From: a virus
Direction: 5' to 3' (one strand)
Length of the DNA: 38,488 nucleotides
Virus record (IMG/VR): IMGVR_UViG_3300038424_000048
Span: 1-38,488 of that record
Shown: piece by piece, positions 1-12,874 of the stretch
How the letters are laid out: each line of letters opens with the position of its first letter
How positions within the stretch are numbered: the stretch's first letter is position 1
Notes under the pieces: generated by a model
Databases searched by the model: none
Told to the model about the DNA's origin: nothing
The model's input: only the letters and a program-made list of their open reading frames with translations
Translations under genes and position numbers: made by a program

Positions 1-127
1 AACCGCAGTTGCCAACGAGCGAGAACGTTGTTGTAAGGACTTGTGCCAGTGGTGTCGACAGGTTATCCCATTGCCGGTTCTTCTAGGACTATTCATACCG
101 ATAAGGATGGGCGCGGTGGCGCTTGGA
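1..127. repeat. 127-bp terminal direct repeat, left copy
   Basis: These bases are identical to the last 127 bases of the window (38362-38488). An exact 127-base end overlap is what a k-mer assembler leaves on a closed circular contig, so the real unit is probably 38,361 bp. A gene reads through the join without interruption, which supports circularity or circular permutation. A genuine short terminal repeat of the virion DNA cannot be excluded from sequence alone. Confidence 0.9.
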
Positions 128-169
128 CTTGTGATGCCGCCGCCATCCGCCAGAGGAAGCCGTGACTGA
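1..169 (+). CDS. 3' part of small membrane-like protein spanning the circular join
   Basis: This is the end of the gene that begins at 38318; joined, it encodes 70 aa. The frame starts at base 2 (ACC), with base 1 the last base of a split GAA codon, and stops at TGA 167-169. The middle has a hydrophobic stretch rich in V, L, I, P and G (around VIPLPVLLGLFIPIRMG), preceded by a Cys-rich region with CC and CQWC. It may be a small membrane protein; no family was recognised. The next gene starts inside its last codons at GTG 162. Confidence 0.6.
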   Translation, partial: TAVANERERCCKDLCQWCRQVIPLPVLLGLFIPIRMGAVALGLVMPPPSARGSRD

Positions 170-332
170 AAAGATCCAGATTTTCACTTGTCCCCCACAC
201 AAAGACTGCGACCACGATTGGTCCGGCCCGACAATCGAGCGTGAGCGTCCCTCTGGAGCCGTCGAGTCCGGCGTGACATGCGCGAAATGCGGGACCTTTT
301 ACGGCGACTGGATGCTATGGAATCTGCCATGA
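162..332 (+). CDS. Small Cys/His-rich protein, 56 aa
   Basis: GTG start at 162, with a GAGGAA ribosome binding site just upstream and the end of the previous gene overlapping. The protein has a CPPHKDCDH cluster near residues 10-18 and a CAKC knuckle near residues 43-46, so a zinc-binding fold is plausible. Its stop (TGA 330-332) overlaps the ATG at 329 of the VRR-NUC gene, which implies coupled translation. Function unknown; similar small metal-binding proteins are common in phage early regions. Confidence 0.55.
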   Translation: MTEKIQIFTCPPHKDCDHDWSGPTIERERPSGAVESGVTCAKCGTFYGDWMLWNLP

Positions 333-661
333 CCGAGGACGAACTGCTCTCCGCCGTCATCGAACTCGCCACGTTTGCTGGCTACCGATGCCACCATGTC
401 CGGCCCGCGTGGAGTCGCAAGGGATACCGGACGCCTCTCCAGGGGCACGCGGGATTCCCCGACCTCTGCCTCTGCGGGCACAAACGGCTCATCCTCGTCG
501 AATTGAAGTCGGACGACGGGAAGGTAAGCCCCGAACAATGGCTGTGGATTGACGCGCTGACGTTGGCAGGCGTGGAGGCGTACATTTGGAGGCCGGAAGA
601 TTGGGAAGACGGCACGATTGCGAAGGCGCTGGGGTGTGGTGGAGGAGTGATTCGACGATGA
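329..661 (+). CDS. VRR-NUC domain nuclease
   Basis: 110-aa protein with the hallmarks of the VRR-NUC branch of the PD-(D/E)XK nucleases: a conserved GFPDL (acidic D), then about 15 residues on, the ELK motif in a strand (ILVELKSDDG), followed by a Q-containing helix (SPEQWLWIDAL) and a final strand (VEAYIWRPEDW). These are the catalytic D, E-x-K and Q of the family. Phage members are stand-alone enzymes, probably acting on branched or replicating DNA. An in-frame ATG at 278 exists, but ATG 329 overlaps the preceding stop and removes an unconserved leader. Its own TGA (659-661) overlaps the ATG at 658. Confidence 0.87.
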   Translation: MTEDELLSAVIELATFAGYRCHHVRPAWSRKGYRTPLQGHAGFPDLCLCGHKRLILVELKSDDGKVSPEQWLWIDALTLAGVEAYIWRPEDWEDGTIAKALGCGGGVIRR

Positions 662-801
662 AGACGGAGTACGAATACATTCATTTCCTTGAGATGTCCG
701 TTCCCGTACAAAGGAAGCAGTGGAGTTCGAGCGGACACATGGCCCGTCTCGTGGACCTGAGCGCGAAACAGCGTATCTGCACCGATCCTGCCTCGCCCTA
801 G
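658..801 (+). CDS. Small unknown protein, 47 aa, overlapping the next frame
   Basis: ATG 658 overlaps the TGA of the VRR-NUC gene, which supports initiation here. The first part (MKTEYEYIHFLEM) resembles the start of small phage proteins that begin with a YIHF strand, but the rest (QRICTDPASP) looks like non-conserved tail sequence. A second ORF at 720-881 in another frame overlaps it by 82 bases and has its own ribosome binding site and a coupled downstream start. Either both are translated or this is a gene broken by a frameshift. Confidence 0.4.
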   Translation: MKTEYEYIHFLEMSVPVQRKQWSSSGHMARLVDLSAKQRICTDPASP

Positions 802-881
802 ACGAAGTGGACTTCTCCACATTGGAGGATAGGGGACAGATCAACTGGCTAGATCATTGCGGTGGAGATTGCGGGACATGA
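720..881 (+). CDS. Small unknown protein, 53 aa, GTG start
   Basis: GTG 720 is preceded by AAGGA (711-715) with a 4-base spacer. The protein is acidic in its second half (LALDEVDFSTLEDRGQINWLDHC) and looks more protein-like than the overlapping 658-801 frame. Its stop (TGA 879-881) overlaps ATG 878 of the next gene, as elsewhere in this genome, which supports it being real. No family recognised. Confidence 0.5.
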   Translation: MEFERTHGPSRGPERETAYLHRSCLALDEVDFSTLEDRGQINWLDHCGGDCGT

Positions 882-1297
882 ACCAACTCTCCTTGGAATT
901 TGACCCCATGCGCCGAGCCGGGATAGGCGATGTGCGGCGAGGATCGGCCCGGCGGTCCTCGCCTGACGATGCCGCGAAGGGCCTGCGAAGGAAAAGGAGG
1001 GGCCAGAAGGTGGTAGCAGGGAATAATCGGGAGTGGACGGAGCGGATGCGGGAGATTGCACAGAGAATTTGCGAGGGGCGTACAAACTATAGTCGCCTCG
1101 AACCGTGGGGCACCGTGACCACTGATGACCTCCGGTTGCACGCGCAACGCCATATGCTGCCAGGTCTGAAACCGAACAGTAACAAAGCATGGGGCGGGAT
1201 CTTCTGCGGCCCGCACTGGCTCTGCGTGGGCCAGGTGAGGAGTACGTACAAGACGAATAACGGACGATTTATCCGTCAATGGAGGTGGGTGGCATAG
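878..1297 (+). CDS. Winged-helix-like phage protein, 139 aa
   Basis: The N-terminal third is basic and low complexity (RRGSARRSSPDD, RRKRRGQK). The C-terminal half has a compact pattern WGTVTTDDLRLHAQ ... GLKPNSNKAWGGIF ... VGQVRST ... NGRFIRQWRW, resembling small phage winged-helix proteins that start with a G-x-V-T-x-D-D-L/V-R helix. A DNA-binding role in replication or regulation is an inference. ATG 878 was chosen over the in-frame ATG 857 because it overlaps the upstream stop. Confidence 0.6.
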   Translation: MNQLSLEFDPMRRAGIGDVRRGSARRSSPDDAAKGLRRKRRGQKVVAGNNREWTERMREIAQRICEGRTNYSRLEPWGTVTTDDLRLHAQRHMLPGLKPNSNKAWGGIFCGPHWLCVGQVRSTYKTNNGRFIRQWRWVA

Positions 1298-1307
1298 GAG
1301 GTGACGC

Positions 1308-1637
1308 ATGGCAGTCTGGGTGACGCTCAAGAGCGGGGAAGTCAGGAAGTATAACAGCGCCGGTATCATGCGATGGGACAACGGCAAATTGAACATCGCC
1401 GTCCAAGATCCAATGGAGAAGAACGCCGTTGCCGAATTCGATGCCTCCCATGTCCTCATTGCTGAATTCGAGCGGCCCTGCGAAATCACCTTTAACGCTG
1501 ACGCCGTGGACAAAGCCCTGGACATCCTCCTGACGCGGGCGAAGTCCATCACGGACTCACGGCGAAAGGGAAAACTGGCCGACCTCTCGCGGCTGTTGCG
1601 GAAGTTCAATCCCCAACGGAGGGAGTGGACGCGATGA
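1308..1637 (+). CDS. Hypothetical protein, 109 aa
   Basis: Strong ribosome binding site AGGAGGTGA just before ATG 1308. The N-terminal half looks like a small beta domain (VTLKSGEVRKY ... WDNGKLNIAV). The C-terminal half is helical and basic (LDILLTRAKSI ... KLADLSRLLRKFNPQRREW). Function not recognised. It ends in an ATGA overlap with the next gene. Confidence 0.6.
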   Translation: MAVWVTLKSGEVRKYNSAGIMRWDNGKLNIAVQDPMEKNAVAEFDASHVLIAEFERPCEITFNADAVDKALDILLTRAKSITDSRRKGKLADLSRLLRKFNPQRREWTR

Positions 1638-1822
1638 CCGCGACCGAAGCCTACGCGGAGCAGGTGAGGGAAGAGGCTGCAAAGCAGATTCCGACCACCT
1701 GGCTTGATCCGCTGCTGAGTGGGCCAGAGCGGATCGTGGGTGATCCTCCCTATTACGGTAAGGATATGGAGCGGCTTCTGCAGGCACTGGCACAACGTAT
1801 CCGCGCGCTCAAGGTGTCCTAG
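1634..1822 (+). CDS. Hypothetical protein, 62 aa
   Basis: ATG 1634 overlaps the preceding TGA and sits about 10 bases after GGAGGG (1618-1623); an in-frame GTG at 1625 is too close to that site. The product is helical and mildly acidic (EAYAEQVREEAAKQI ... MERLLQALAQRIRALKVS) with no recognised domain. It could be a small regulatory or adaptor protein. Confidence 0.5.
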   Translation: MTATEAYAEQVREEAAKQIPTTWLDPLLSGPERIVGDPPYYGKDMERLLQALAQRIRALKVS

Positions 1823-1841
1823 TGATGCGCGAGGGGTGGGC

Positions 1842-1913
1842 ATGACCTGTGCCGCTTGCGATACTCCTTGTGAAGGTGCCGATCGACCGGGACAGAATGC
1901 AGCAGGATTGTGA
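1842..1913 (+). CDS. Possible 23-aa Cys-rich peptide
   Basis: ATG 1842 follows GAGGGG at a good distance and encodes a very short peptide with C-x-x-C-x-x-x-x-C spacing (CAACDTPC). It fills the gap between two better-supported genes. It may be a real micro-peptide or chance. Confidence 0.25.
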   Translation: MTCAACDTPCEGADRPGQNAAGL

Positions 1914-1925
1914 AGAGAGGGACAA

Positions 1926-2282
1926 ATGGAAACCAAAAATCCTGAGTGGTATTTGAAGCAGCCATATACGCGAGTATTGCTGCCAGAGGCAGAAGGTGGA
2001 TTCTTTGCCGAAATCCTTGAATTTCCTGGCTGCTACGCGCAAGGTGAAAACCCAACTCAAGCTTATCAAGACCTTGAGGAAGCGGCGAAATCTTGGCTTG
2101 CGGCGGCCTTGGAACATGGACAGACAATTCCTCCCCCTGGAAGCGGTCGCGGCTATTCTGGTAAACTGGCGCTTTGGCTTCCCAGGGGCCTTCACCGTAA
2201 AGTAGCACAGAGAGCAAACCAGGAAGGAATCAGTATGAATCAATTACTTATTATCGCAATATCGTCGTGGATAGGTTGGTAA
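1926..2282 (+). CDS. hicB: HicB-like antitoxin-family protein (no HicA partner seen)
   Basis: 118 aa. Residues ~15-60 match the HicB degenerate RNase-H-like fold: a GGFFAEILEFPGCYAQG core, then the A-x-x-x-L-E-E-A helix (AYQDLEEAAKSWLAAAL). The C-terminal part (GKLALWLPRGLHRKVAQRANQEGISMNQLLIIAI) reads as a ribbon-helix-helix DNA-binding module of the kind fused in many HicB proteins. No HicA-like dsRBD toxin gene lies on either side, so it is probably a solitary HicB serving as a repressor or as an antitoxin against host HicA. Start supported by GAGAGGG just upstream. Confidence 0.8.
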   Translation: METKNPEWYLKQPYTRVLLPEAEGGFFAEILEFPGCYAQGENPTQAYQDLEEAAKSWLAAALEHGQTIPPPGSGRGYSGKLALWLPRGLHRKVAQRANQEGISMNQLLIIAISSWIGW

Positions 2283-2287
2283 TCGCC

Positions 2288-2857
2288 ATGACCTGGGTAC
2301 GTATTGACGATGGATTCGGGGACCATCCCAAGATCCTTGCGGTTGGGCCAATCGGCGCAATTATCCATATGAGAGCGTTTTGTTACTGTAGCCGGCACCT
2401 GACGGATGGATTTATTCCCATGGGTGCCGTTGAGGGTCTGTTGCACGGGATAGAGCATATCGGGATAGCAGACGGCGGCTGTCCTGGATTGTTCGAGTTT
2501 GGGCATGATGCAAATGAGGTTGATTGGCCTGAAACTTTGGTGAAAAACAAGCTATGGGAACGCTCAAAAAACAGTGACGGATACTTCGTGCATGACTACC
2601 TGGATTATAACCCTTCCAAGCGCGAAATCCTGGAACTCCGCAAAAAGAAAAAGATAGCAGGTCAAGCAGGTGGTCAAGCATCCGCTCAAGCACGTGGTCG
2701 AGCAACCGTTGAGCACACCGTTGAAGAAAGTTTGAACTCCCCTCCCCATCCCCTAAATACAAATACATCGGAGTCTGATGGTAATGTCATAGGTAATGGG
2801 AAGGAACAGATCAGAAACCTGATTAAAACGGTAGCGGATAAGCGGGAGATGAAGTGA
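2288..2857 (+). CDS. Replication-initiation / helicase-loader-like protein
   Basis: 189 aa. The N-terminal ~115 residues have the pattern of phage replisome-organiser winged-helix domains: WVRIDDGFGDHPKI, a long helix with CYCSRHLTDGFIP, LVKNKLWER and a terminal HDYLDYNPS. The rest is a basic, low-complexity linker rich in K, G, Q, A and R, then a variable tail, as expected for a protein with DNA-binding and partner-binding ends. The likely role is recruiting the host helicase to the phage origin, an inference from the family. Start ATG 2288 lies 5 bases after the HicB stop; an upstream in-frame start at 2267 lies inside that gene. Confidence 0.65.
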   Translation: MTWVRIDDGFGDHPKILAVGPIGAIIHMRAFCYCSRHLTDGFIPMGAVEGLLHGIEHIGIADGGCPGLFEFGHDANEVDWPETLVKNKLWERSKNSDGYFVHDYLDYNPSKREILELRKKKKIAGQAGGQASAQARGRATVEHTVEESLNSPPHPLNTNTSESDGNVIGNGKEQIRNLIKTVADKREMK

Positions 2858-2861
2858 GGGC

Positions 2862-2890
2862 TTGACAAATCGAGTGGTGAGGACTATAGG
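2862..2890 (+). promoter_or_regulatory. Candidate sigma70 promoter, leaderless position
   Basis: TTGACA (2862-2867), a 17-base spacer, then TATAGG (2885-2890). The predicted start of transcription falls at or next to ATG 2898, so the transcript would be leaderless or nearly so. An SD-like AGGAGGGG overlaps the -10, so the element could instead be an ordinary RBS within a longer transcript. Confidence 0.45.
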
Positions 2891-2897
2891 AGGGGAT

Positions 2898-3176
2898 ATG
2901 GCTACTCACTACAGGCGGCCTATGGTGCAGAGCCGGACGGAGCTCTCAGAGACGACTCGGGAACGAGTCAAGCAAATTAAACACAGGTTCGAACTCAGTC
3001 AGGCTCAGGTAGTAGATCATGGGTTAGCCTATGGATTGGCACAGTTACCGGCTTTGTATTGGAAACGGCTTCGTCAAAGTGGGATAGGAGCGAAAGGGCG
3101 CAAGGCGTCGAAAGTGTATGTCACCCGCCGTGCGCGTCCACCCGAGGAGGAGCCGTCCCCGGACGGGACCTTGTGA
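2898..3176 (+). CDS. Small DNA-binding-like protein (possible ribbon-helix-helix)
   Basis: 92 aa. After a short basic N-terminus there is a strand-helix-helix pattern (SRTELSETTRERVKQIKHRF then LSQAQVVDHGLAYGLAQL) that fits a CopG/Arc-like ribbon-helix-helix, followed by a basic tail ending in an E/P-rich stretch. This is a structural guess. ATG 2898 is preceded by AGGAGGGGAT; an in-frame TTG at 2862 coincides with the promoter -35 box and is unlikely as a start. Confidence 0.55.
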   Translation: MATHYRRPMVQSRTELSETTRERVKQIKHRFELSQAQVVDHGLAYGLAQLPALYWKRLRQSGIGAKGRKASKVYVTRRARPPEEEPSPDGTL

Positions 3177-3190
3177 TTTCACAAGGTACG

Positions 3191-3218
3191 TTGAAGTTTA
3201 CATAATGGTTATTATACG
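3191..3218 (+). promoter_or_regulatory. Candidate promoter in AT-rich gap
   Basis: The 94-base gap 3177-3270 is clearly more AT-rich than its surroundings. It contains TTGAAG (3191-3196), a 16-base spacer and TATACG (3213-3218). It would transcribe the 3271-4320 genes and possibly the packaging genes beyond. Confidence 0.4.
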
Positions 3219-3270
3219 ACCCTATCTCTTACAATGGCTCAACAGAATCAAGTAGTTAGGAGTGACAGAA

Positions 3271-3747
3271 ATGGTAGCTTGTGAAGATACCAGATCTGGG
3301 GGTAGGAGCCCCTATGACCAGGACGCTCCGGTATCTCGTGACACCGAAATTCACAAATCACAAAAGGCCGCGCCTGAGCTAGCGCGGGCACCCTCACCTG
3401 CGCTTCCCCCCAAGAAAAATTCCGATTTCCCCTACGACCCCTACACAAAGATTCTCTTGGGGCTTTTGGTGGTTGACGATAAGAAGGCTCTTAAACGTCT
3501 GTGGGCTCTTCGGAAGTCTTACCTCGATGGTAAATTCCGAATGCCGTGGCCTAGCCCGGATATAAACCTCAACACTGGGCCCCCGCAGAATCGCACGCGG
3601 CCTGCTGAAACCATGCCCTATCCCCTCCTCGCCAACTACGGCTTCAAGAATGCCTGCGACCTCTGGTCGAAGTGCTCCCATACCGAAGAGATGTTCTGGA
3701 CTCTCTTCGAAGCCATGCTGTGGGCGAAAGTGAGGGAAATCCCATGA
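3271..3747 (+). CDS. Hypothetical protein, 158 aa
   Basis: The N-terminal ~60 residues are Pro/Ala/Ser-rich and look disordered. The C-terminal part is ordered (YTKILLGLLVVDDKKALKRLWALRKSYLDG ... YPLLANYGFKNACDLWSKC ... MFWTLFEAMLWAKV). No family recognised. It lies two genes upstream of the interrupted gene before terL, so it could be a diverged small terminase, but nothing in the sequence proves that. ATG 3271 is preferred over GTG 3262 for its spacing from AGGAG. Confidence 0.55.
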   Translation: MVACEDTRSGGRSPYDQDAPVSRDTEIHKSQKAAPELARAPSPALPPKKNSDFPYDPYTKILLGLLVVDDKKALKRLWALRKSYLDGKFRMPWPSPDINLNTGPPQNRTRPAETMPYPLLANYGFKNACDLWSKCSHTEEMFWTLFEAMLWAKVREIP

Positions 3748-3968
3748 TCTCCGTCCTCCTCGTGCATACGAACGGAGCACAGTTCAGCCTGAGGTTCCCC
3801 GAAGGTAAGACATTCACCCTCTCTCCTGGTCCTCCTGGCCGCTATACGGTCTTCGGAGACAACGATGTGAGGCTAGCCGATGTGCCCCAGGACTGCACCC
3901 TCTACATCGGCACCGTGGAGATGCAGTTCGGTCAACCCGTAGGAGGAGGAAACGCCAATGTCGAATGA
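3744..3968 (+). CDS. Hypothetical beta-rich protein, 74 aa
   Basis: ATG 3744 overlaps the upstream TGA. The sequence alternates hydrophobic strands with Gly/Pro turns (MISVLLVHTNGAQFSLRF ... PGRYTVFGDNDVRLADVP ... CTLYIGTVEMQF), consistent with a small beta barrel. Function unknown. Confidence 0.55.
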   Translation: MISVLLVHTNGAQFSLRFPEGKTFTLSPGPPGRYTVFGDNDVRLADVPQDCTLYIGTVEMQFGQPVGGGNANVE

Positions 3969-4155
3969 TCGAGCCATGAAAGTCTTTCCACCCGCTCACG
4001 TCTGCATTGATTGTGATTTTGCCATCAACCGCACAGATGGCGAGAAGCGGGAGCAGTACACTGTTTGCACCATAGACTTGGGTGAGGTTCCTTACCTCTT
4101 ATCGTGCAGTAAAAAAGAACATCGGGCATCGATGGGAACGACGGAGCCTGCATAG
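3958..4155 (+). CDS. Small Cys-containing protein, 65 aa
   Basis: Strong RBS GGAGGAGG before ATG 3958. It has a C-x-x-C pair (VCIDCDF) and later a second pair of cysteines (VCTID ... LLSCSK), which could form a treble-clef-like or zinc site. Overlaps the previous gene by 11 bases. Function not recognised. Confidence 0.5.
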   Translation: MSNDRAMKVFPPAHVCIDCDFAINRTDGEKREQYTVCTIDLGEVPYLLSCSKKEHRASMGTTEPA

Positions 4156-4285
4156 ATGCCCAATCTTGAACCGGGATACTACTGGGTGAAGTGGTTCCCG
4201 CATGATACGGAGTGGGAAATCTCCCGCCTGCTTTGTGATTATGATGGACGGTCCTGGGAGTGCATGGGAACGGATGAGAGTTGCA

Positions 4286-4293
4286 CAAGAGTA
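4286..4293. repeat. Target-site duplication, left copy (CAAGAGTA)
   Basis: Eight bases immediately outside the left inverted repeat, identical to 6384-6391. Eight-base duplications are typical of the IS1595 family. The match runs on to 11 bases only because both the element and the target continue with GGG. Confidence 0.93.
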
Positions 4294-4317
4294 GGGAATT
4301 ATATAGATGACCCCCTT
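4294..4317. repeat. Left terminal inverted repeat of the transposon
   Basis: Starts GGGAATTATATAGATGACCC. The first 12 bases match the reverse complement of the right end exactly, and 20 of 24 overall. The stop codon of the 42-aa gene (TAA, complement of 4299-4301) lies inside it, so coding sequence reaches into the repeat. Confidence 0.9.
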
Positions 4318-4427
4318 TGAGCCTTCCGACGTTTGCGCTGGCGCTTCTTCGCCTTCTTTGTTCTGGCGGGAGAACAGTAGGACAGGACCTTATCGGAAAT
4401 CCTGTCGAGTGCGGCGAGTGTTTTCAT
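4299..4427 (-). CDS. 42-aa highly basic protein coupled to the transposase
   Basis: ATG (complement of 4425-4427) overlaps the transposase stop as ATGA, so translation is coupled. After a short helix (MKTLAALDRISDKVLSYC), the rest is strongly basic (ARTKKAKKRQRKRRKAQRG), suggesting nucleic-acid binding. Its stop lies in the left inverted repeat. It may be an accessory transposition protein that binds the ends or target DNA; that role is inference. It is convergent with, and overlaps, the end of the interrupted + strand gene. Confidence 0.65.
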   Translation of the reverse strand: MKTLAALDRISDKVLSYCSPARTKKAKKRQRKRRKAQRGSSI

Positions 4428-5344
4428 GCCGTCAATTCCTTGTAAGTAATTCGCTTCTTCGCCGCGGCAGCTATGAGGGCGTCCAGCCGGGCCAAGGTGT
4501 GTTGTCTCACGTTTCCCTCGTTCAGTCGGAAGGCGAACTCATTCACGTAGCGCCCAAGATGCTTCCTGCTCGCGTGGTGATAGACCCCATGCAGCCCACG
4601 CTTCAAGACCGCCCAAACGCTATCTATGCCGTTCGTGGTGATCCCACCTCGAACGTACTCCCCGGCGCTATGGTTGACACTCTCGTGCCGAAAGAACAAT
4701 CCATCAAGGCCGGTATAGGCTGCATGCTCGTCGGTGTTCAGAGTAGATCGCGGCTCGACGTGGCGATGAATAGCATCGTGAACTGTGGCGATATTAACGT
4801 CCTCGACCGGCATAGCGATGGTTCGGCCCCCGCGCTCACGCATGCCGAGGACGGCGGCTTTTCCCACGGCGCCTCGCCCGAGTCTTTGCCGCTTGGCCTC
4901 ATGTTTGGAAGCCTCGACTCCGCCGACGTAGGTTTCGTCAACTTCCACGGTGCCGCGCAACATGCCGAGTTCCTTGCCGCAGGCTTCGCGGATCCGGTGC
5001 AGGACGAACCAGGCGGATTTCTGAGTGATCCCAATTTCCTTCGACAGTTGCAGCGAGGAGATCCCCTTACGCGAGGTAACCAGCAGGTACATGGCATACA
5101 GCCACTTCTGAAGCGGCACATGGGACCGTTCGAAGATGGTGCCCGTGCGGACGGTGAAGTCCTCTTGGCACTCGTTGCAGCGGTAAAAGCCGTCCTTCCG
5201 GATCGTGATCCGGTTCCTGTTCTCGCAAACCGGGCAGGCGACGCCGTTCGGCCAACGATGGGATTCCAGGTACATCCGCGCCGAATGCTCGTCAGGGAAG
5301 AGGCTGAACAGTTGAGCGGTGCTGATAGTTACGTGATCGTTCAT
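4424..5344 (-). CDS. tnp: IS1595-family (ISXO2-like) transposase
   Basis: 306 aa. Residues 37-59 form an N-terminal zinc ribbon (CPVC ... CNEC). A helical DNA-binding region follows (KGISSLQLSKEIGITQKSAWFVLHRIRE, ~93-120). The DDE-type core has D136 in VDETYVGG, D205 in NTDEHAAY, and a third-residue region TNGIDSVWAVLKRG (237-250), then the family tail YHHASRKHLGRYVNEFAFRLN. Where most relatives have Glu (N-x-I-E), this protein has Asp241. Length is normal and the frame intact. RBS GGAGGT lies 5 bases before the ATG and 21 bases after the upstream gene. The enzyme would cut and join the element's ends. Confidence 0.93.
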   Translation of the reverse strand: MNDHVTISTAQLFSLFPDEHSARMYLESHRWPNGVACPVCENRNRITIRKDGFYRCNECQEDFTVRTGTIFERSHVPLQKWLYAMYLLVTSRKGISSLQLSKEIGITQKSAWFVLHRIREACGKELGMLRGTVEVDETYVGGVEASKHEAKRQRLGRGAVGKAAVLGMRERGGRTIAMPVEDVNIATVHDAIHRHVEPRSTLNTDEHAAYTGLDGLFFRHESVNHSAGEYVRGGITTNGIDSVWAVLKRGLHGVYHHASRKHLGRYVNEFAFRLNEGNVRQHTLARLDALIAAAAKKRITYKELTA

Positions 5345-5365
5345 GAGCTACCTCCGCGTCTCTGG

Positions 5366-5542
5366 TCAATCATATACCAAGGCACGGGTCCTGGCATCTT
5401 TTCCCACCCATCGGCAGTATTTCAGATGCTCTTCAAAGCACTCTGGATGATAGGGTCCGCAGCCACAAAGTGGGCACCATTTCGCGTTGGTCTTCGGGTG
5501 CGTGATCCGATCCTTGCAGGCCATGCGCACGCAAACGGTCAT
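5366..5542 (-). CDS. Transposon passenger: Cys/His-rich protein, 58 aa
   Basis: ATG at the complement of 5540-5542; TGA at 5366-5368. Metal-site residues cluster in the middle: C23-x-x-C26-x-C28, H32, C35, H39 and C43, which fits one or two zinc ions. An N-terminal pair (C4, C9) is also present. It begins 3 bases after the stop of the 106-aa gene and ends 21 bases before the transposase, so all are one operon. No family recognised; a DNA-binding or partner-binding zinc finger is the simplest guess. Confidence 0.65.
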   Translation of the reverse strand: MTVCVRMACKDRITHPKTNAKWCPLCGCGPYHPECFEEHLKYCRWVGKDARTRALVYD

Positions 5543-5545
5543 GAC

Positions 5546-5866
5546 TTATCTACTCCCCGCAGTTGGAGTCCAAGGGTACAAGTCGTATGCATCGTGCCAC
5601 AGATCCCACAGTATCCGAGCCGTTTGCCTGCGAATCCGACCGATCGGCGTTGTGTCTTCCTTGGAAATTTCATTCAGTCGGCGACAGTAGTTCTCGGATG
5701 CCATCCGGGTCACTTCATTTCTTCCGATGCACAGTTCAGGCAAGAGAGACAGGATTGCATTCCCATCGTTGGTGGCGAGGTGAAAGATTCTCGTGGCCGG
5801 TTCCTTCAATTGGTTCCAGATGGCCTTGTCGCTTTGGTTCGGTTCAAAGGGCTTATTCTCTGGCAT
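5546..5866 (-). CDS. Transposon passenger: unknown protein, 106 aa
   Basis: Start ATG at the complement of 5864-5866 with GGGAGA 8-9 bases upstream; longer in-frame starts lie inside the previous gene. The protein is mostly helical (SDKAIWNQLKEPATRIFHLA ... NEVTRMASENYCRRLNEI ... RIRRQTARILWDLWHDAYDLYPW) with one charged middle and an aromatic C-terminus. No signal peptide, membrane segment or known motif. The upstream gene ends 13 bases before. Confidence 0.6.
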   Translation of the reverse strand: MPENKPFEPNQSDKAIWNQLKEPATRIFHLATNDGNAILSLLPELCIGRNEVTRMASENYCRRLNEISKEDTTPIGRIRRQTARILWDLWHDAYDLYPWTPTAGSR

Positions 5867-5879
5867 CTTGATGTCTCCC

Positions 5880-6122
5880 TTATCGCACATCTCGTGCATC
5901 TTGCCCCAGGTGAAATTGCTCTGTCCACGAGTCTGTTCCGAAAGCAGCAGACCCGCAGACTTCGAACTTCTCCATGGCCCCGCCCCCGTCAACCTCGATC
6001 AGTCGATGAGCCTTGCGACCTGCATATTGGCCGCAAATTTTGCAAGGATTCTTCGCGCCACCATTTCGGTGCCACTTATAGGGGTTCGTTTCTTTTTTTC
6101 CCCAGTAGCGCGGCTTGTTCAT
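5880..6122 (-). CDS. Transposon passenger: small zinc-finger-like protein, 80 aa
   Basis: ATG (complement of 6120-6122) overlaps the stop of the first operon gene as ATGA and has AAGGAAA upstream. C27-x-x-C30, H39 and C56 could bind zinc (NPCKICGQYAGRKAHRLIEVD). The N-terminus is basic and aromatic (MNKPRYWGKKETNPYKWHRN). The arrangement is faintly HNH-like, but the catalytic histidine pattern is not complete, so nuclease activity is not claimed. Confidence 0.6.
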   Translation of the reverse strand: MNKPRYWGKKETNPYKWHRNGGAKNPCKICGQYAGRKAHRLIEVDGGGAMEKFEVCGSAAFGTDSWTEQFHLGQDARDVR

Positions 6123-6307
6123 GGCTCTATTTCCTTTTTTATTTTTCCCTGAACTGGCCAAAGCACGATGTCCCCACAATCAGGGCAGAAATCTCGAAAG
6201 GTACTGTCTATGTGCAAGGTATTTACTTTGGTTATCCAGCGCCCGTTACAGGTGTACTTGGCGACAGTTCCTTTTTGGTCCCAAATGTGGTCTGTTTTTG
6301 TCTTCAT
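6119..6307 (-). CDS. Transposon passenger: small zinc-ribbon-like protein, 62 aa
   Basis: First gene of the element's operon: ATG at the complement of 6305-6307 with a strong AAAGGAGG 8-9 bases upstream, just behind the promoter at 6333-6361. C20, H32 and C41-x-x-C44 (FCPDCGD) could form one zinc site. As the first product from a promoter next to the inverted repeat, an autoregulator is possible, but nothing shows it directly. Confidence 0.6.
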   Translation of the reverse strand: MKTKTDHIWDQKGTVAKYTCNGRWITKVNTLHIDSTFRDFCPDCGDIVLWPVQGKIKKEIEP

Positions 6308-6332
6308 GGTTCTTTCCTCCTTTCTAACTACC

Positions 6333-6361
6333 AATATATACCTGATTCCCTCGCCTGTCAA
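6333..6361 (-). promoter_or_regulatory. Strong sigma70 promoter of the transposon operon
   Basis: On the minus strand: TTGACA (complement of 6356-6361), a 17-base spacer, TATATT (complement of 6333-6338). Transcription would start near 6326, about 19 bases before the first ATG. The -35 box abuts and partly overlaps the right inverted repeat, so transposase bound at this end could block its own promoter, a common IS autoregulation scheme. Confidence 0.8.
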
Positions 6362-6383
6362 GGGAATAATGTATATAATTCCC
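6360..6383. repeat. Right terminal inverted repeat of the transposon
   Basis: Read inward on the minus strand it starts GGGAATTATATACATTATTC; the first 12 bases are identical to the left end. The outermost 20 bases (6363-6382) are also nearly self-complementary (16 of 20), which the left end is not. On the + strand it carries TATAAT at 6374-6379, a possible outward -10. Confidence 0.9.
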
Positions 6384-6391
6384 CAAGAGTA
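6384..6391. repeat. Target-site duplication, right copy (CAAGAGTA)
   Basis: Identical to 4286-4293, immediately outside the right inverted repeat. An intact duplication indicates a fairly recent single insertion rather than a recombined element. Confidence 0.93.
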
Positions 6392-6439
6392 GGGGGGCCA
6401 TATCTAGTCGGACTCAAATTGGACCCTCCCGATGCCTGA
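6392..6439 (+). pseudogene. 3' remnant of the gene interrupted by the transposon
   Basis: Sixteen codons (GGPYLVGLKLDPPDA plus stop) that complete the frame broken at 4293. The TGA at 6437-6439 overlaps the first codons of the terminase gene (ATG 6432), the same coupled arrangement as elsewhere. In the present genome these codons are the end of a long open + strand frame running antisense through the transposon from 4307. Confidence 0.8.
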
Positions 6440-8267
6440 CCTCCTGACCCTCACCCCGCCCCCCACGCTCCCCAAGCGCCCCCCGCGCCAGGTCTATCAC
6501 AACGCCACGCTCGCCTCCGCCTCGGATGCCTTGCGCGGCTTCCCGGAGTTCGCCAGCAATCTCTGGATCGAGAGCAAGGAGTTCGGCCACACGCGGCTGA
6601 AGCTCTGGGGGACGCAGGACTATGCGATTCAGGAGATCGGCCGCGGCATCGAGGACGGGATTCGCACGTTCTACCTGGACAAGGGTCGGCAGGATGGGCT
6701 GACGACCGGCATCCTAGCCCTGGACTTGTACTGGATGATCAAGTTCCCCGGCATGCAGGCGGATCTGATCAGCGACACCGACGACAACCGCAACGTGTTC
6801 AAAGACACGCTGGATACGATGCACGCCGGGCTCCCAAAGGCGTGGTCCTGCCCCAAGAAGGCCCACAACCGGGCGTTCTTCTCGTTCGCCAACCGCTCCC
6901 GGCTTATGTACCAGGTGGCCGGCACCCGGAAGGCCGACGAGCGCAAGGCGTCGCCCATCGGGCAATCGCGGGGACTGAACTACATCCACGCGACCGAATG
7001 TGGGTCCTGGGCCGACGAGGAACAGCTTGAGCGCCTACTGGCGTCGCTCGCCGATATTCACCCGCACCGCCTATACGTGTTCGAGTCCACGGCCCGGGGC
7101 TACAACCTCTGGTACGACATGTGGAAGGACGCGCAGCACGCTGTCAGTATCCGGCCCATATTCGTGGGATTCTGGCGGAACGAAAACAAGCGCCTGTCCC
7201 CCGATTCGGCGGCCTTCAAGGTGTACTGGGACGGTCGGCTGACGGGGGACGAGCGCACCCGCGTCAAGGCCATCAAGAAGCTCTACGGGGTTGAGGTCCT
7301 GCCCGAGTGCATCGCGTGGTGGCGCTGGAAGCACGCCGAGCACATCAAGGACGAGGCCACCATGCACCAAGAATACCCCTGGCTCCCGGAGGATTCCTTC
7401 CAGGCGACGGGGAGCCAGTTCATTTCCGGGGGGAAGATCGCGCAGATGCACCAGGGCCTTGAGAAGTCGCCAGCCGGTGAGACCTACGCCTACACCTTCG
7501 GGACCACGTTTGACACGACGGAGCTGCATCAGACAAACCCGGGCCGGGGCGGGCTTCGCGTCTGGGAGCCGCACTGGCCAGGGGCCACGTATGTGCTGGG
7601 GGCGGACCCTGCGTATGGGTCCTCGCCGGATTCCGACCGCTATGCGGCGACGCTTTGGCGGGTAGAGGGCGGGAAACTGGTGGAGGTAGCCGAGTACGTT
7701 ACGGTGCTTGGAACGGCTTATCAGTTCGCTTGGGTCCTCATGCACCTCTGCGGGTCCTACGGGGGCGATGTGTTGCTGGTCCTGGAACTCTCCGGGCCCG
7801 GGCAGGGCGTGTGGGACGAGATCCAGCGCATGAGTTACTATGGCTGGGGCGTCTCCGCCGGCAATTCCGACCTCACCGATGTCTTCAACTCCATCCGGCA
7901 CTACCTCTACCGCCGCACGGACAGCCTGAATCCCAACGTGGTCTACCAGTGGAAGATGGGGCAGAACAAGGTCTGGTTGATGAATAAGCTGCGGGACACG
8001 ATAGAGCGCGGGGGTCTCGTGGTGCGGTCGAAGGAGCTTGCCGACGAACTGGCCGGCCTCCGGCAGGATGGGGATTCCATCGAGGCGCATGGGCGGGCCA
8101 AGGATGATCGGGCGATCTCCACCGCCCTCGCTGTGGAAGGGTGGCTCACGATGCTGGTTCCAGAACTCGGCTTGCAGGAGCCAGGGGAGGCCCCGCCGCC
8201 AGATACGGTCTTGGGGCAGAGCGTCGTGAATTTCCTGAAAGAACTGCGGAGGCCGAAGCAGGAGTAG
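6432..8267 (+). CDS. terL: Terminase large subunit
   Basis: 611 aa, normal length. The ATPase half has a deviant Walker A (KGRQDGLTT, residues 84-92), a Walker B-like strand ending in Glu (NYIHATE, 183-189) and the VFESTARG coupling motif (217-223). The nuclease half has the RNase-H-fold acidic residues D392 (GADPAYG), E452 (LLVLELSGPG) and D558/D559 (AKDDRAISTALA). It cuts concatemers and pumps DNA through the portal. No good SD precedes ATG 6432; originally it would have been translationally coupled to the gene now broken by the transposon. Confidence 0.96.
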   Translation: MPDLLTLTPPPTLPKRPPRQVYHNATLASASDALRGFPEFASNLWIESKEFGHTRLKLWGTQDYAIQEIGRGIEDGIRTFYLDKGRQDGLTTGILALDLYWMIKFPGMQADLISDTDDNRNVFKDTLDTMHAGLPKAWSCPKKAHNRAFFSFANRSRLMYQVAGTRKADERKASPIGQSRGLNYIHATECGSWADEEQLERLLASLADIHPHRLYVFESTARGYNLWYDMWKDAQHAVSIRPIFVGFWRNENKRLSPDSAAFKVYWDGRLTGDERTRVKAIKKLYGVEVLPECIAWWRWKHAEHIKDEATMHQEYPWLPEDSFQATGSQFISGGKIAQMHQGLEKSPAGETYAYTFGTTFDTTELHQTNPGRGGLRVWEPHWPGATYVLGADPAYGSSPDSDRYAATLWRVEGGKLVEVAEYVTVLGTAYQFAWVLMHLCGSYGGDVLLVLELSGPGQGVWDEIQRMSYYGWGVSAGNSDLTDVFNSIRHYLYRRTDSLNPNVVYQWKMGQNKVWLMNKLRDTIERGGLVVRSKELADELAGLRQDGDSIEAHGRAKDDRAISTALAVEGWLTMLVPELGLQEPGEAPPPDTVLGQSVVNFLKELRRPKQE

Positions 8268-9165: not shown

Positions 9166-9685
9166 GTTGCCGCTGTCCGCGCAGGGGCCGAGAGCGGACT
9201 TCAAGTGCCCGATGTGCGGCACGATGGAACTTCCCGTGGCGGCCAAGGTCTGCCCGGTCTGCGAGGGGCCGGTAGATCGCATCTGGTCCGCCAATATCGC
9301 CACGCGGGTAACGGTGCCCCGCATCCACAAGGTTGAAACCTTGTTGGATCAAGCGAGCCACTACACGGACGATGATGGGCGGCGCGTCCCCCGGCGGGCC
9401 ACGCCCAGCGCAGAGTATCAGCATCAAGTCGCTGATATCAAGCAGCAGGCCCGCCAGCAGGCAGGGCGAATTCGGATCAGCCACGATGAGGCCCGCGCCC
9501 TTGGGAGTCAGGAGCGTGCCGCCTTCCAAATCCCTAATCCAATCTTCACCGGCAACAGCACCATGCCGATTCCGAAGGGGCAGTCACCCTCATCGGGCCG
9601 TGAAGGCATGGCGCTTCCGCGTGTACGCCCGGCCCCCGGCTCCCTGATGGACGGTGAGACAATGCAGACAAGGAGAGCGCGATGA
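8993..9685 (+). CDS. Zinc-ribbon protein upstream of portal, 230 aa
   Basis: Start ATG 8993 has AAGGAACG 5 bases upstream but lies inside the previous gene; a later start at 9026 lacks an RBS. Residues ~25-60 are a Pro/Ala/Lys-rich linker (KVRRPRTRKPKPAHPELP), then a double-CxxC zinc ribbon (CPMCGTM ... KVCPVCEGPV, ~72-92), then a helical, Gln/Arg-rich region and a loose tail. It sits two genes before the portal, so a minor head or packaging role is possible but not shown. Confidence 0.6.
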   Translation: MRPMRFLRDWLMPKGTSPAGTAPDLIPTSPPTEAAPPAAEKPKVRRPRTRKPKPAHPELPLSAQGPRADFKCPMCGTMELPVAAKVCPVCEGPVDRIWSANIATRVTVPRIHKVETLLDQASHYTDDDGRRVPRRATPSAEYQHQVADIKQQARQQAGRIRISHDEARALGSQERAAFQIPNPIFTGNSTMPIPKGQSPSSGREGMALPRVRPAPGSLMDGETMQTRRAR

Positions 9686-11920: not shown

Positions 11921-12139
11921 ATGTCCGCCAACGGCACCGTGAACACCTGGAAAGAAATCATGGAGGCCCTTGGCCGCTCCCCCCGGAGCGGACAGGGGAA
12001 GGCACAGGTCAAGAAACTCTATGGGGACATTCTTCGGCGCGATCCGAACTCCAACCGCATTTGGGCGTTCACTGAGGAGTTGAACGCTCGCCGCAAGGCC
12101 CTCTCCAAGCGTGTCTGCAAAATCCCTGTCAAGCCGTAG
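11921..12139 (+). CDS. HTH-like small protein, 72 aa
   Basis: Begins SANGTVNTWKEIMEALGRSP, a typical opening of a helix-turn-helix (W-K-E-I-x-x-x-L-G-R-S). Later parts (KAQVKKLYGDILRRD ... NRIWAFTEELNARRKAL) match excisionase- or terminase-small-like recognition helices in general style. It may be a DNA-binding packaging or regulatory protein; which one cannot be decided. No strong RBS; AGCGAAGAAG lies upstream. The 74 bases before it are AT-rich. Confidence 0.55.
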   Translation: MSANGTVNTWKEIMEALGRSPRSGQGKAQVKKLYGDILRRDPNSNRIWAFTEELNARRKALSKRVCKIPVKP

Positions 12140-12144
12140 TTTTC

Positions 12145-12233
12145 CGTCCAAGTAGCGTCCAGGTAGCGTCCTAGTTCGTCCTGCCCGCCTAATCCGCCCC
12201 CATACTTCCCCCTAGATGGGGATTTCTCCATCT
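12145..12233. other. Non-coding gap with short tandem repeats and a hairpin
   Basis: The 151-base gap 12140-12290 has no gene. It starts with tandem units CGTCCAAGTAG (12145-12155), CGTCCAGGTAG (12156-12166) and a degenerate CGTCCTAGTT, then CGTCC again. At 12214-12233 AGATGGGG-ATTT-CTCCATCT forms an 8-bp stem (one G-T pair) with a 4-base loop and no T tract after it. Possible roles are a protein-binding site or RNA structure; nothing decides between them. Confidence 0.4.
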
Positions 12234-12290
12234 CATCGAAGCGGCCCTCGGGGATAACCGCGTGGGCCTAGCAGAGGGGAGGTGACACAC

Positions 12291-12341
12291 ATGGACGAGC
12301 GCAATCGCGGGAAGCGGAAGGCCCGGAGACACAAGCGGTAA
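12291..12341 (+). CDS. Very short basic peptide, 16 aa
   Basis: ATG 12291 has an excellent RBS (GGGGAGGTGA). It encodes MDERNRGKRKARRHKR and stops at TAA 12339-12341, two bases before the GTG of the next basic peptide. It may be a leader that couples translation to that gene, or a DNA-binding micro-peptide. Confidence 0.4.
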   Translation: MDERNRGKRKARRHKR

Positions 12342-12343
12342 GC

Positions 12344-12445
12344 GTGGCCACGACGAGGCAGAAACAGGCCGCCCGCCGGAGCATTCGGATTGCCCAGCGG
12401 GCGGCCCGCGCACGCAAACGGTTCAGGAAGTCACGCCGGAGTTGA
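12344..12445 (+). CDS. Small basic peptide (KQKAAR-type), 33 aa
   Basis: GTG start. The sequence opens TTRQKQAARRSIRIAQRAAR and ends in more Arg/Lys. It resembles small phage and bacterial proteins with a K/R-Q-K-x-A-A-R-x-N-I-x-x-A-Q motif, whose function is unknown. The high charge suggests DNA contact, perhaps in the head, given its place between portal and scaffold. Confidence 0.5.
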   Translation: MATTRQKQAARRSIRIAQRAARARKRFRKSRRS

Positions 12446-12448
12446 CCT

Positions 12449-12874
12449 ATGCCGGACATACCGATTCCCACCCCCGGAGGCCCCGCTGGGGCTGCTCCTG
12501 GCCCTCCGGGAGTCCCCACGCCCACTCCAGCGGGGGCTATCCCCCCAGCCCCAGCACCAGCCGCAGCCAGCGTTCCCGGTGCCCAGCAGGGCTCCCGCGC
12601 ACGGTCTCTCTTAGAGGTTGACCTCGCTTACAAGGCACTCAGGCGGGCGCTGGATGGCCTGGATCGCACCTCTTCTGAGGCTAAGGACATCTTGAAGGCG
12701 ATGACCGCCTTAGTGAGTGTGCTTGGCGAGGAGCCAAGCGCGGGGCTCACCAGGACCGAAGTGCAGTCGCTGGGGGCGCAGGCCAGCCCCATGGCGGCCA
12801 CCAACCCGGCCCAACGGAGTGCGATGCAAAACCTCATTCGCCAGCGGCAGATGATCGCGCCGCCGGCCGCGTAA
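12449..12874 (+). CDS. Pro/Ala-rich head-region protein, 141 aa
   Basis: The first ~50 residues are Pro/Gly/Ala-rich and surely disordered. Residues ~52-95 form helices (SLLEVDLAYKALRRALDGLD ... EAKDILKAMTALVSVLG). The tail is helical and basic (MQNLIRQRQM). Between portal and scaffold this could be a scaffold accessory or minor head protein; no family recognised. Confidence 0.55.
   Translation: MPDIPIPTPGGPAGAAPGPPGVPTPTPAGAIPPAPAPAAASVPGAQQGSRARSLLEVDLAYKALRRALDGLDRTSSEAKDILKAMTALVSVLGEEPSAGLTRTEVQSLGAQASPMAATNPAQRSAMQNLIRQRQMIAPPAA

Follow-up and report, generated by a model that had tools for sequence, protein, structure and literature searches.

A complete transposon of the IS1595 family and its passenger genes in a phage genome, and the apparently undescribed phage-dwelling lineage around it

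The window, i.e., the whole 38,488-bp IMG/VR virus contig that was analyzed, was recognized as a phage by its genes for the terminase large subunit (TerL), portal, major head protein and a Cas4-like exonuclease. A single copy of a 2090-bp element (4294-6383) was found in it between two copies of the 8-bp sequence CAAGAGTA, which agreed at 8/8 positions. The element ends in terminal inverted repeats, GGGAATTATATAGATGACCCCCTT on the left and GGGAATTATATACATTATTCCCTT on the right, with the outer 12 bases perfect and 20/24 matching in all; the family consensus of this repeat is GGGAATTATATACWTGACTCCCTY. Six ORFs, all on the minus strand, encode proteins of 62, 80, 106 and 58 amino acid residues, a transposase of 306 residues and a last protein of 42 residues; adjacent ORFs overlap in an ATGA or lie within ~25 nt of each other, and most are preceded by a Shine-Dalgarno-like sequence (Table 1). 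A first-pass annotation had described six packed minus-strand genes between inverted repeats beginning at 4294 and 6383 and a perfect 8-bp duplication, and these features proved exact to the base. When the element and one duplication were removed in silico, an ORF of 61 amino acid residues was restored at 4156, the stop codon of which overlaps the start codon of terL; the insertion into a packaging region, also proposed in that annotation, was thus located in a small gene directly upstream of terL. The interrupted frame terminates shortly after entering the left repeat, and the last ~14 residues of the 61-residue protein are therefore replaced.

Table 1. Features of the element and of the adjoining phage genes, in window coordinates
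Feature	Position	Strand	Evidence
Interrupted 61-aa phage gene, 5' part	4156..4293	+	ORF restored by joining 1-4293 to 6392 onward
Target site duplication, 8 bp, left copy, CAAGAGTA	4286..4293	.	Same as 6384-6391, 8/8
Left terminal inverted repeat, GGGAATTATATAGATGACCCCCTT	4294..4317	+	20/24 complementary to right end
Basic 'tail' protein, 42 aa; ATG overlaps transposase stop, last codons inside end repeat	4299..4427	-	Relatives in 53/73 viral transposase-bearing elements
IS1595-family DDE transposase, 306 aa; zinc ribbon C37/C40/C56/C59; D136, D205, D241	4424..5344	-	PF12762, PF12760, NF033547
Passenger D, 58 aa, Cys- and His-rich	5366..5542	-	ORF; no family above cut-off
Passenger C, 106 aa, GGGAGA ahead	5546..5866	-	ORF; no family
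Passenger B, 80 aa, CxxC-containing; start overlaps passenger A stop	5880..6122	-	ORF; no family above cut-off
Passenger A, 62 aa, CPDC motif, AGGAGG ahead	6119..6307	-	ORF; PHROG matches all weak, none better than E 0.005
Sigma-70-like promoter TTGACA-17-TATATT, just inside right end	6333..6361	-	11/12 match
Right terminal inverted repeat, GGGAATTATATACATTATTCCCTT	6360..6383	-	
Target site duplication, 8 bp, right copy, CAAGAGTA	6384..6391	.	
Interrupted 61-aa phage gene, 3' part	6392..6439	+	Same joining
Terminase large subunit TerL (context, outside element)	6432..8267	+	phrog_2, 2.1e-10

The catalytic domain of the transposase matched DDE_Tnp_IS1595 over the full domain (PF12762, E 1.1e-44), and the whole protein matched NF033547 (E 4.6e-60, 203 bits; cut-off 75). 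The N-terminal zinc ribbon was found by PF12760 (1.3e-12), with C37, C40, C56 and C59 conserved. Seven groups of the IS1595 family, namely ISPna2, ISH4, IS1016, IS1595, ISSod11, ISNwi1 and ISNha5, have been distinguished; the zinc ribbon is present in all of them but IS1016, and the usual gene content is a single transposase gene (PMC8101967). In the window, the DDE_Tnp_IS1595 domain, the zinc ribbon and the 8-bp duplication are all present, and five ORFs are found beyond the transposase, unlike the usual one-gene state; as that state is usual and not a requirement, the extra ORFs are compatible with membership. IS1595 members with passenger genes are known. The profile matches, the ends and the duplication bore out the earlier proposal of a complete IS1595-family transposon with one DDE transposase, and support the presence of such an element, with passenger genes, in the small gene just upstream of the phage terL.

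The four passengers gave no match above the cut-off in the family libraries and none in the first set of loci compared, and the suggestion that this set may be new thus held for the libraries searched. For passenger C, no relative was found in the viral contigs, and its single-sequence AlphaFold model (pLDDT 57) was too poor for a search. The CxxC motifs in three of the four passengers suggest small metal-binding proteins, and host-takeover or anti-defence proteins of this kind are named, with low confidence, as the most likely cargo.

In an alignment of 187 sequences, the four zinc-ribbon cysteines as well as D136 and D205 were essentially invariant. The third catalytic acid was Glu in 139/142 close relatives, and Asp in the window (codon 241, 4622-4624) and in two other elements, L024 and L213. 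The window transposase may consequently be weak or inactive, and the activity of this copy is uncertain. The substitution of E241 by D, the four mismatches between the end repeats and the presence of no further copy in the record would fit a degenerate, immobile relic, the former passengers of which are now ordinary phage genes. This reading is considered unlikely, although it deserves to be kept in mind: the duplication is perfect, the ORFs are intact and have ribosome-binding sites, and the promoter is near consensus. Moreover, L024, which also carries D241, has a perfect duplication on its flanks, and its sibling L028, 96.4% identical, lies in an unrelated phage with unrelated flanks and a different duplication; Asp at the third catalytic position may thus be tolerated.

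To judge from the wider survey, the window transposon is one of many. A search of viral contigs with the transposase returned 173 relatives, with identities of 63-78% among the best 80 and of 77-78% for the closest. The ends were also sought as DNA patterns, and each of two scans, of which the second fixed 21 bases, returned at least 120 stretches; ends were then paired by a script and the flanks compared for a duplication. At least 106 distinct viral elements in IMG/VR, 73 with and 33 without a transposase, had these ends between exact 8-bp duplications; the records are metagenomic, and some may be fragments or misclassified. The transposase-bearing elements had a median size of 1.8 kb, and the transposase-less ones measured 253-1301 bp. 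Contig L060 (viral, 102 kb) carries an element at 2612-4772 nested in another at 1715-6058, each with its own 8-bp duplication. L023 carries a transposase-bearing element (4244-6051) together with a transposase-less one of 295 bp (9171-9465), the arrangement expected for trans-mobilisation.

As a control, the 140 nearest facing end pairs were used: identical flanking 8-mers were observed at 98 of them, and at none when seven shifted offsets were applied. The duplication did not reach 9 bp in any of the 140 pairs, i.e., it is exactly 8 bp family-wide. The duplications were rich in A+T (82%) in spite of a mean G+C content of 58% in the loci, and A or T was found at position 2 in 103/105 and at position 7 in 104/105. 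The short length of the repeats might have suggested that these are simply the phage's own genes with repeats arising by chance. This can practically be dismissed, as it is refuted by the duplication control (98/140 vs 0), and a transposase lies between repeats that recur as the same ends in at least 106 elements. The window transposon shows the traits of this lineage, namely ends beginning GGGAATTATATA, a transposase that groups with the viral sequences in their clade, and a linked small basic tail gene. No description of this phage-dwelling IS1595 lineage was found in the freely readable journal papers searched, and the lineage is large and, to all appearance, undescribed and new as a phage-dwelling form of IS1595.

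Relatives of the tail protein, basic and of ~40-55 residues, were found in 53 of the 73 viral transposase-bearing elements, with the consensus LDxIxDxVLAYRPKPKxKxAKKRxR in the alignment. The tail gene stands behind the transposase gene, often with an overlapping start, and in some elements behind the passengers instead, and is thus a gene in its own right, not the product of a frameshift. The end repeat itself encodes the C-terminal residues of the protein (ESSI-stop) in several elements; that the protein acts in end binding or synapsis is conjecture. A promoter score of at least 9/12 was obtained at the gene-upstream end of 48/106 elements, at the other end of 1/106, and in 2% of random pieces. 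Such end promoters are typical of the transposase-bearing elements, and an own end promoter in the transposase-less ones was unsupported (2/33). Cargo was not preferentially co-oriented with the flanking phage genes (15:12 and 9:5).

Movement between phages was evident from elements shared by unrelated genomes. A 1561-bp element was 99.7-99.9% identical in L043, L044 and L045, the flanks of which are unrelated, and was bounded by three different duplications (ATATATTA, GAAATTTA and CATACCAA, respectively). Likewise, one transposase-less methyltransferase element was present in L320 and L326 at 91% identity, with different duplications and no similarity between the flanks. The transposase-less elements have therefore also moved at some time. 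The first-pass annotation had proposed to look for copies with different 8-bp flanks; relatives with the same end positions and different 8-bp duplications were present in viral contigs as well as in bacterial bins. The empty site that it had also called for was obtained for a sibling element and not for the window: L356, which is related to the L007 phage, reads straight through the insertion point of L007 and has TATTAAAT there once. Neither of the two outcomes which that annotation had set against a transposon, bacterial relatives ending at other positions or related phages all carrying the same genes there with no empty site, was seen.

For the phage of the window, the TerL search of the viral contigs gave no sibling, and hence no empty site. 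Its TerL was 40-42% identical to the nearest in the phage collection, those of two Manatee Spring phages, in which the small genes upstream of terL are unrelated to those of the window. A DNA search of the phage collection with the element gave no match, and a second copy of the exact element was not found in the collections searched.

A terminase large subunit was detected in 38/49 of the longer viral records (four PHROG profiles, a few matches weak), and proteins flanking the elements matched terminases, RecT/RecE, helicases and integrases. In a maximum-likelihood tree, all 106 viral transposases, that of the window and 31 bin sequences formed one clade without isolates; the outer sequences were all cellular, with the chromosomal isolates as the outside group. 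Among the genome assemblies, the best 52 matches were all to metagenome bins, and the first isolate appeared at ~50% (49-50%) identity. Each bin held a single close copy, plus ordinary IS1595 relatives of lower identity. The flanks of the bin copies were mixed, with integrases and a terminase as well as elongation factors and transporters. Strict confinement of the clade to phages was rejected, since several MAG copies adjoin chromosomal genes; the clade visits chromosomes too. No related transposase above 37% identity was found in the phage collection, and the named-phage collections therefore missed the lineage; the best match in the plasmid collection was at 48%, with none above.

Insertion sequences are stated to be rare in phages, and those found are mostly in temperate phages and were probably gained in the chromosome (PMC8136500). 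Based on the latter, an ordinary bacterial IS1595 could have entered the phage by chance in the host chromosome, as a hitch-hiker of a prophage, and the abundance of IS1595 in bacteria and plasmids and the close relatives on MAG contigs with chromosomal genes are in keeping with this. Such an entry is nevertheless judged improbable, given that the viral transposases form one clade without isolates, that the closest viral contigs (77-78%) are far nearer than the best plasmid (48%) or isolate (49-50%), and that near-identical copies occur in unrelated phages. The lineage is an exception to the rarity of insertion sequences in phages, visible mainly in uncultivated phages.

The cargo differs between elements with similar transposases; L012 and L023, as well as L067 and L072, match mainly on the transposase side. 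Known cargo comprises N6/N4, C5 and Dam-type methyltransferases, Mom, PAPS-reductase-like proteins, 6-pyruvoyl tetrahydropterin synthase (PTPS) and ASCH. The richest set was found in the transposase-less elements, in which 33 ORFs included eight N6_N4, two D12 and one C5 methyltransferase and two Mom proteins; the methyltransferase profile matched most often by flanking phage proteins was found in 4/125, a rough comparison, as the flanking proteins were chosen for length. The dN/dS ratios of four cargo pairs were 0.056, 0.093, 0.078 and 0.106, and those of the transposase 0.046-0.109; the cargo is under purifying selection, like the transposase. Common cargo was shared by a transposase-less (L364) and a transposase-bearing element (L366). 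In L142, two transposase-less elements (1658-2462 and 11961-12588), encoding a DNA methyltransferase and a Mom-like protein, respectively, were seen in the same phage, which has gained DNA modification twice by transposition. The transposase-less element of L092 (9791-10945) carries a QueD-like 6-pyruvoyl tetrahydropterin synthase gene and a gene for a phrog_15826 protein, possibly a mobile 7-deazaguanine DNA-modification pair. The second of these had been taken by eye as Tgt/DpdA-like, and only phrog_15826, of unknown function, was matched.

With considerable confidence, the window element is interpreted as a unit transposon of an IS1595 lineage living mainly in phage genomes, which jumped into the small gene upstream of terL. 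A promoter-like sequence just inside its right end reads into the six-gene operon. The transposase, possibly with the aid of the conserved 42-residue basic protein, would join the ends to AT-rich targets with an 8-bp stagger, and any cargo enclosed by them would hitch-hike. Phages in one cell could exchange such elements, and cargo-only elements would presumably be moved in trans by the transposase of another copy. In this way, the family would spread phage accessory genes, especially DNA-modification genes that would shield phage DNA from restriction. A broader proposal, held to be somewhat likelier to be right than wrong, is that these are dedicated phage gene-cassette transposons, in which a phage-adapted IS1595 lineage supplies the transposase and single-gene, transposase-less elements, mostly for DNA modification, circulate between unrelated phages by movement in trans; if true, this would provide a general route by which phage morons and anti-restriction genes spread.

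Illegitimate recombination is the usual explanation for the gain of accessory genes by phages at new sites. A concrete mechanism for such gain is offered by this defined transposon lineage, the members of which occur widely in uncultivated phages, have recently moved between unrelated ones, and carry many DNA-modification genes that are under purifying selection. As both the ends and the enzyme are known, it can be tested directly how such phage genes originate and spread.

Compared with known systems, the lineage resembles the IS1595 insertion sequences in its DDE_Tnp_IS1595 domain, N-terminal zinc ribbon, 8-bp duplication and short imperfect end repeats. It differs from them in its occurrence mainly in phages, its variable phage-type cargo, its second small basic gene and its many transposase-less cargo derivatives. 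The chromosomal IS1595 elements of bacteria (L249-L281, mostly Alphaproteobacteria) have a transposase of ~46-53% identity, 8-bp duplications and ends such as GGGGCCTATATACCTAGCTAGCCA, and a gene often starts 8 nt before the transposase stop. Unlike in the phage lineage, their transposases do not group in the clade with the viral sequences, and their cargo is typically one large protein with the N-terminal tag IEPIDAxFDxVAKA, in some cases joined to KilA-N. In L249 and L251-L281, an ORF begins 4-8 nt before the transposase stop, with varied domains behind the common tag; KilA-N follows it in L253, and in L251 and L252 a C5 methyltransferase stands behind a shorter GKFDDV tag. IEPIDAxFDxVAKA has the appearance of a peptide tag that is linked to the transposon and borne by varied cargo. 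Homology of the viral tail peptide to this tag found no support in a profile comparison (probability 0.7%).

Phage morons are likewise small accessory genes between phage genes, and the transposase-bearing elements, like them, bring their own promoter; unlike morons, the unit described here has transposon ends and target duplications, and hence a defined mode of movement. Finally, viral miniature inverted-repeat elements (e.g., PMC6004678) are also transposase-less and have ends in common with autonomous elements. Whereas these consist of non-coding DNA, many elements of the present lineage are filled by an intact gene under selection.
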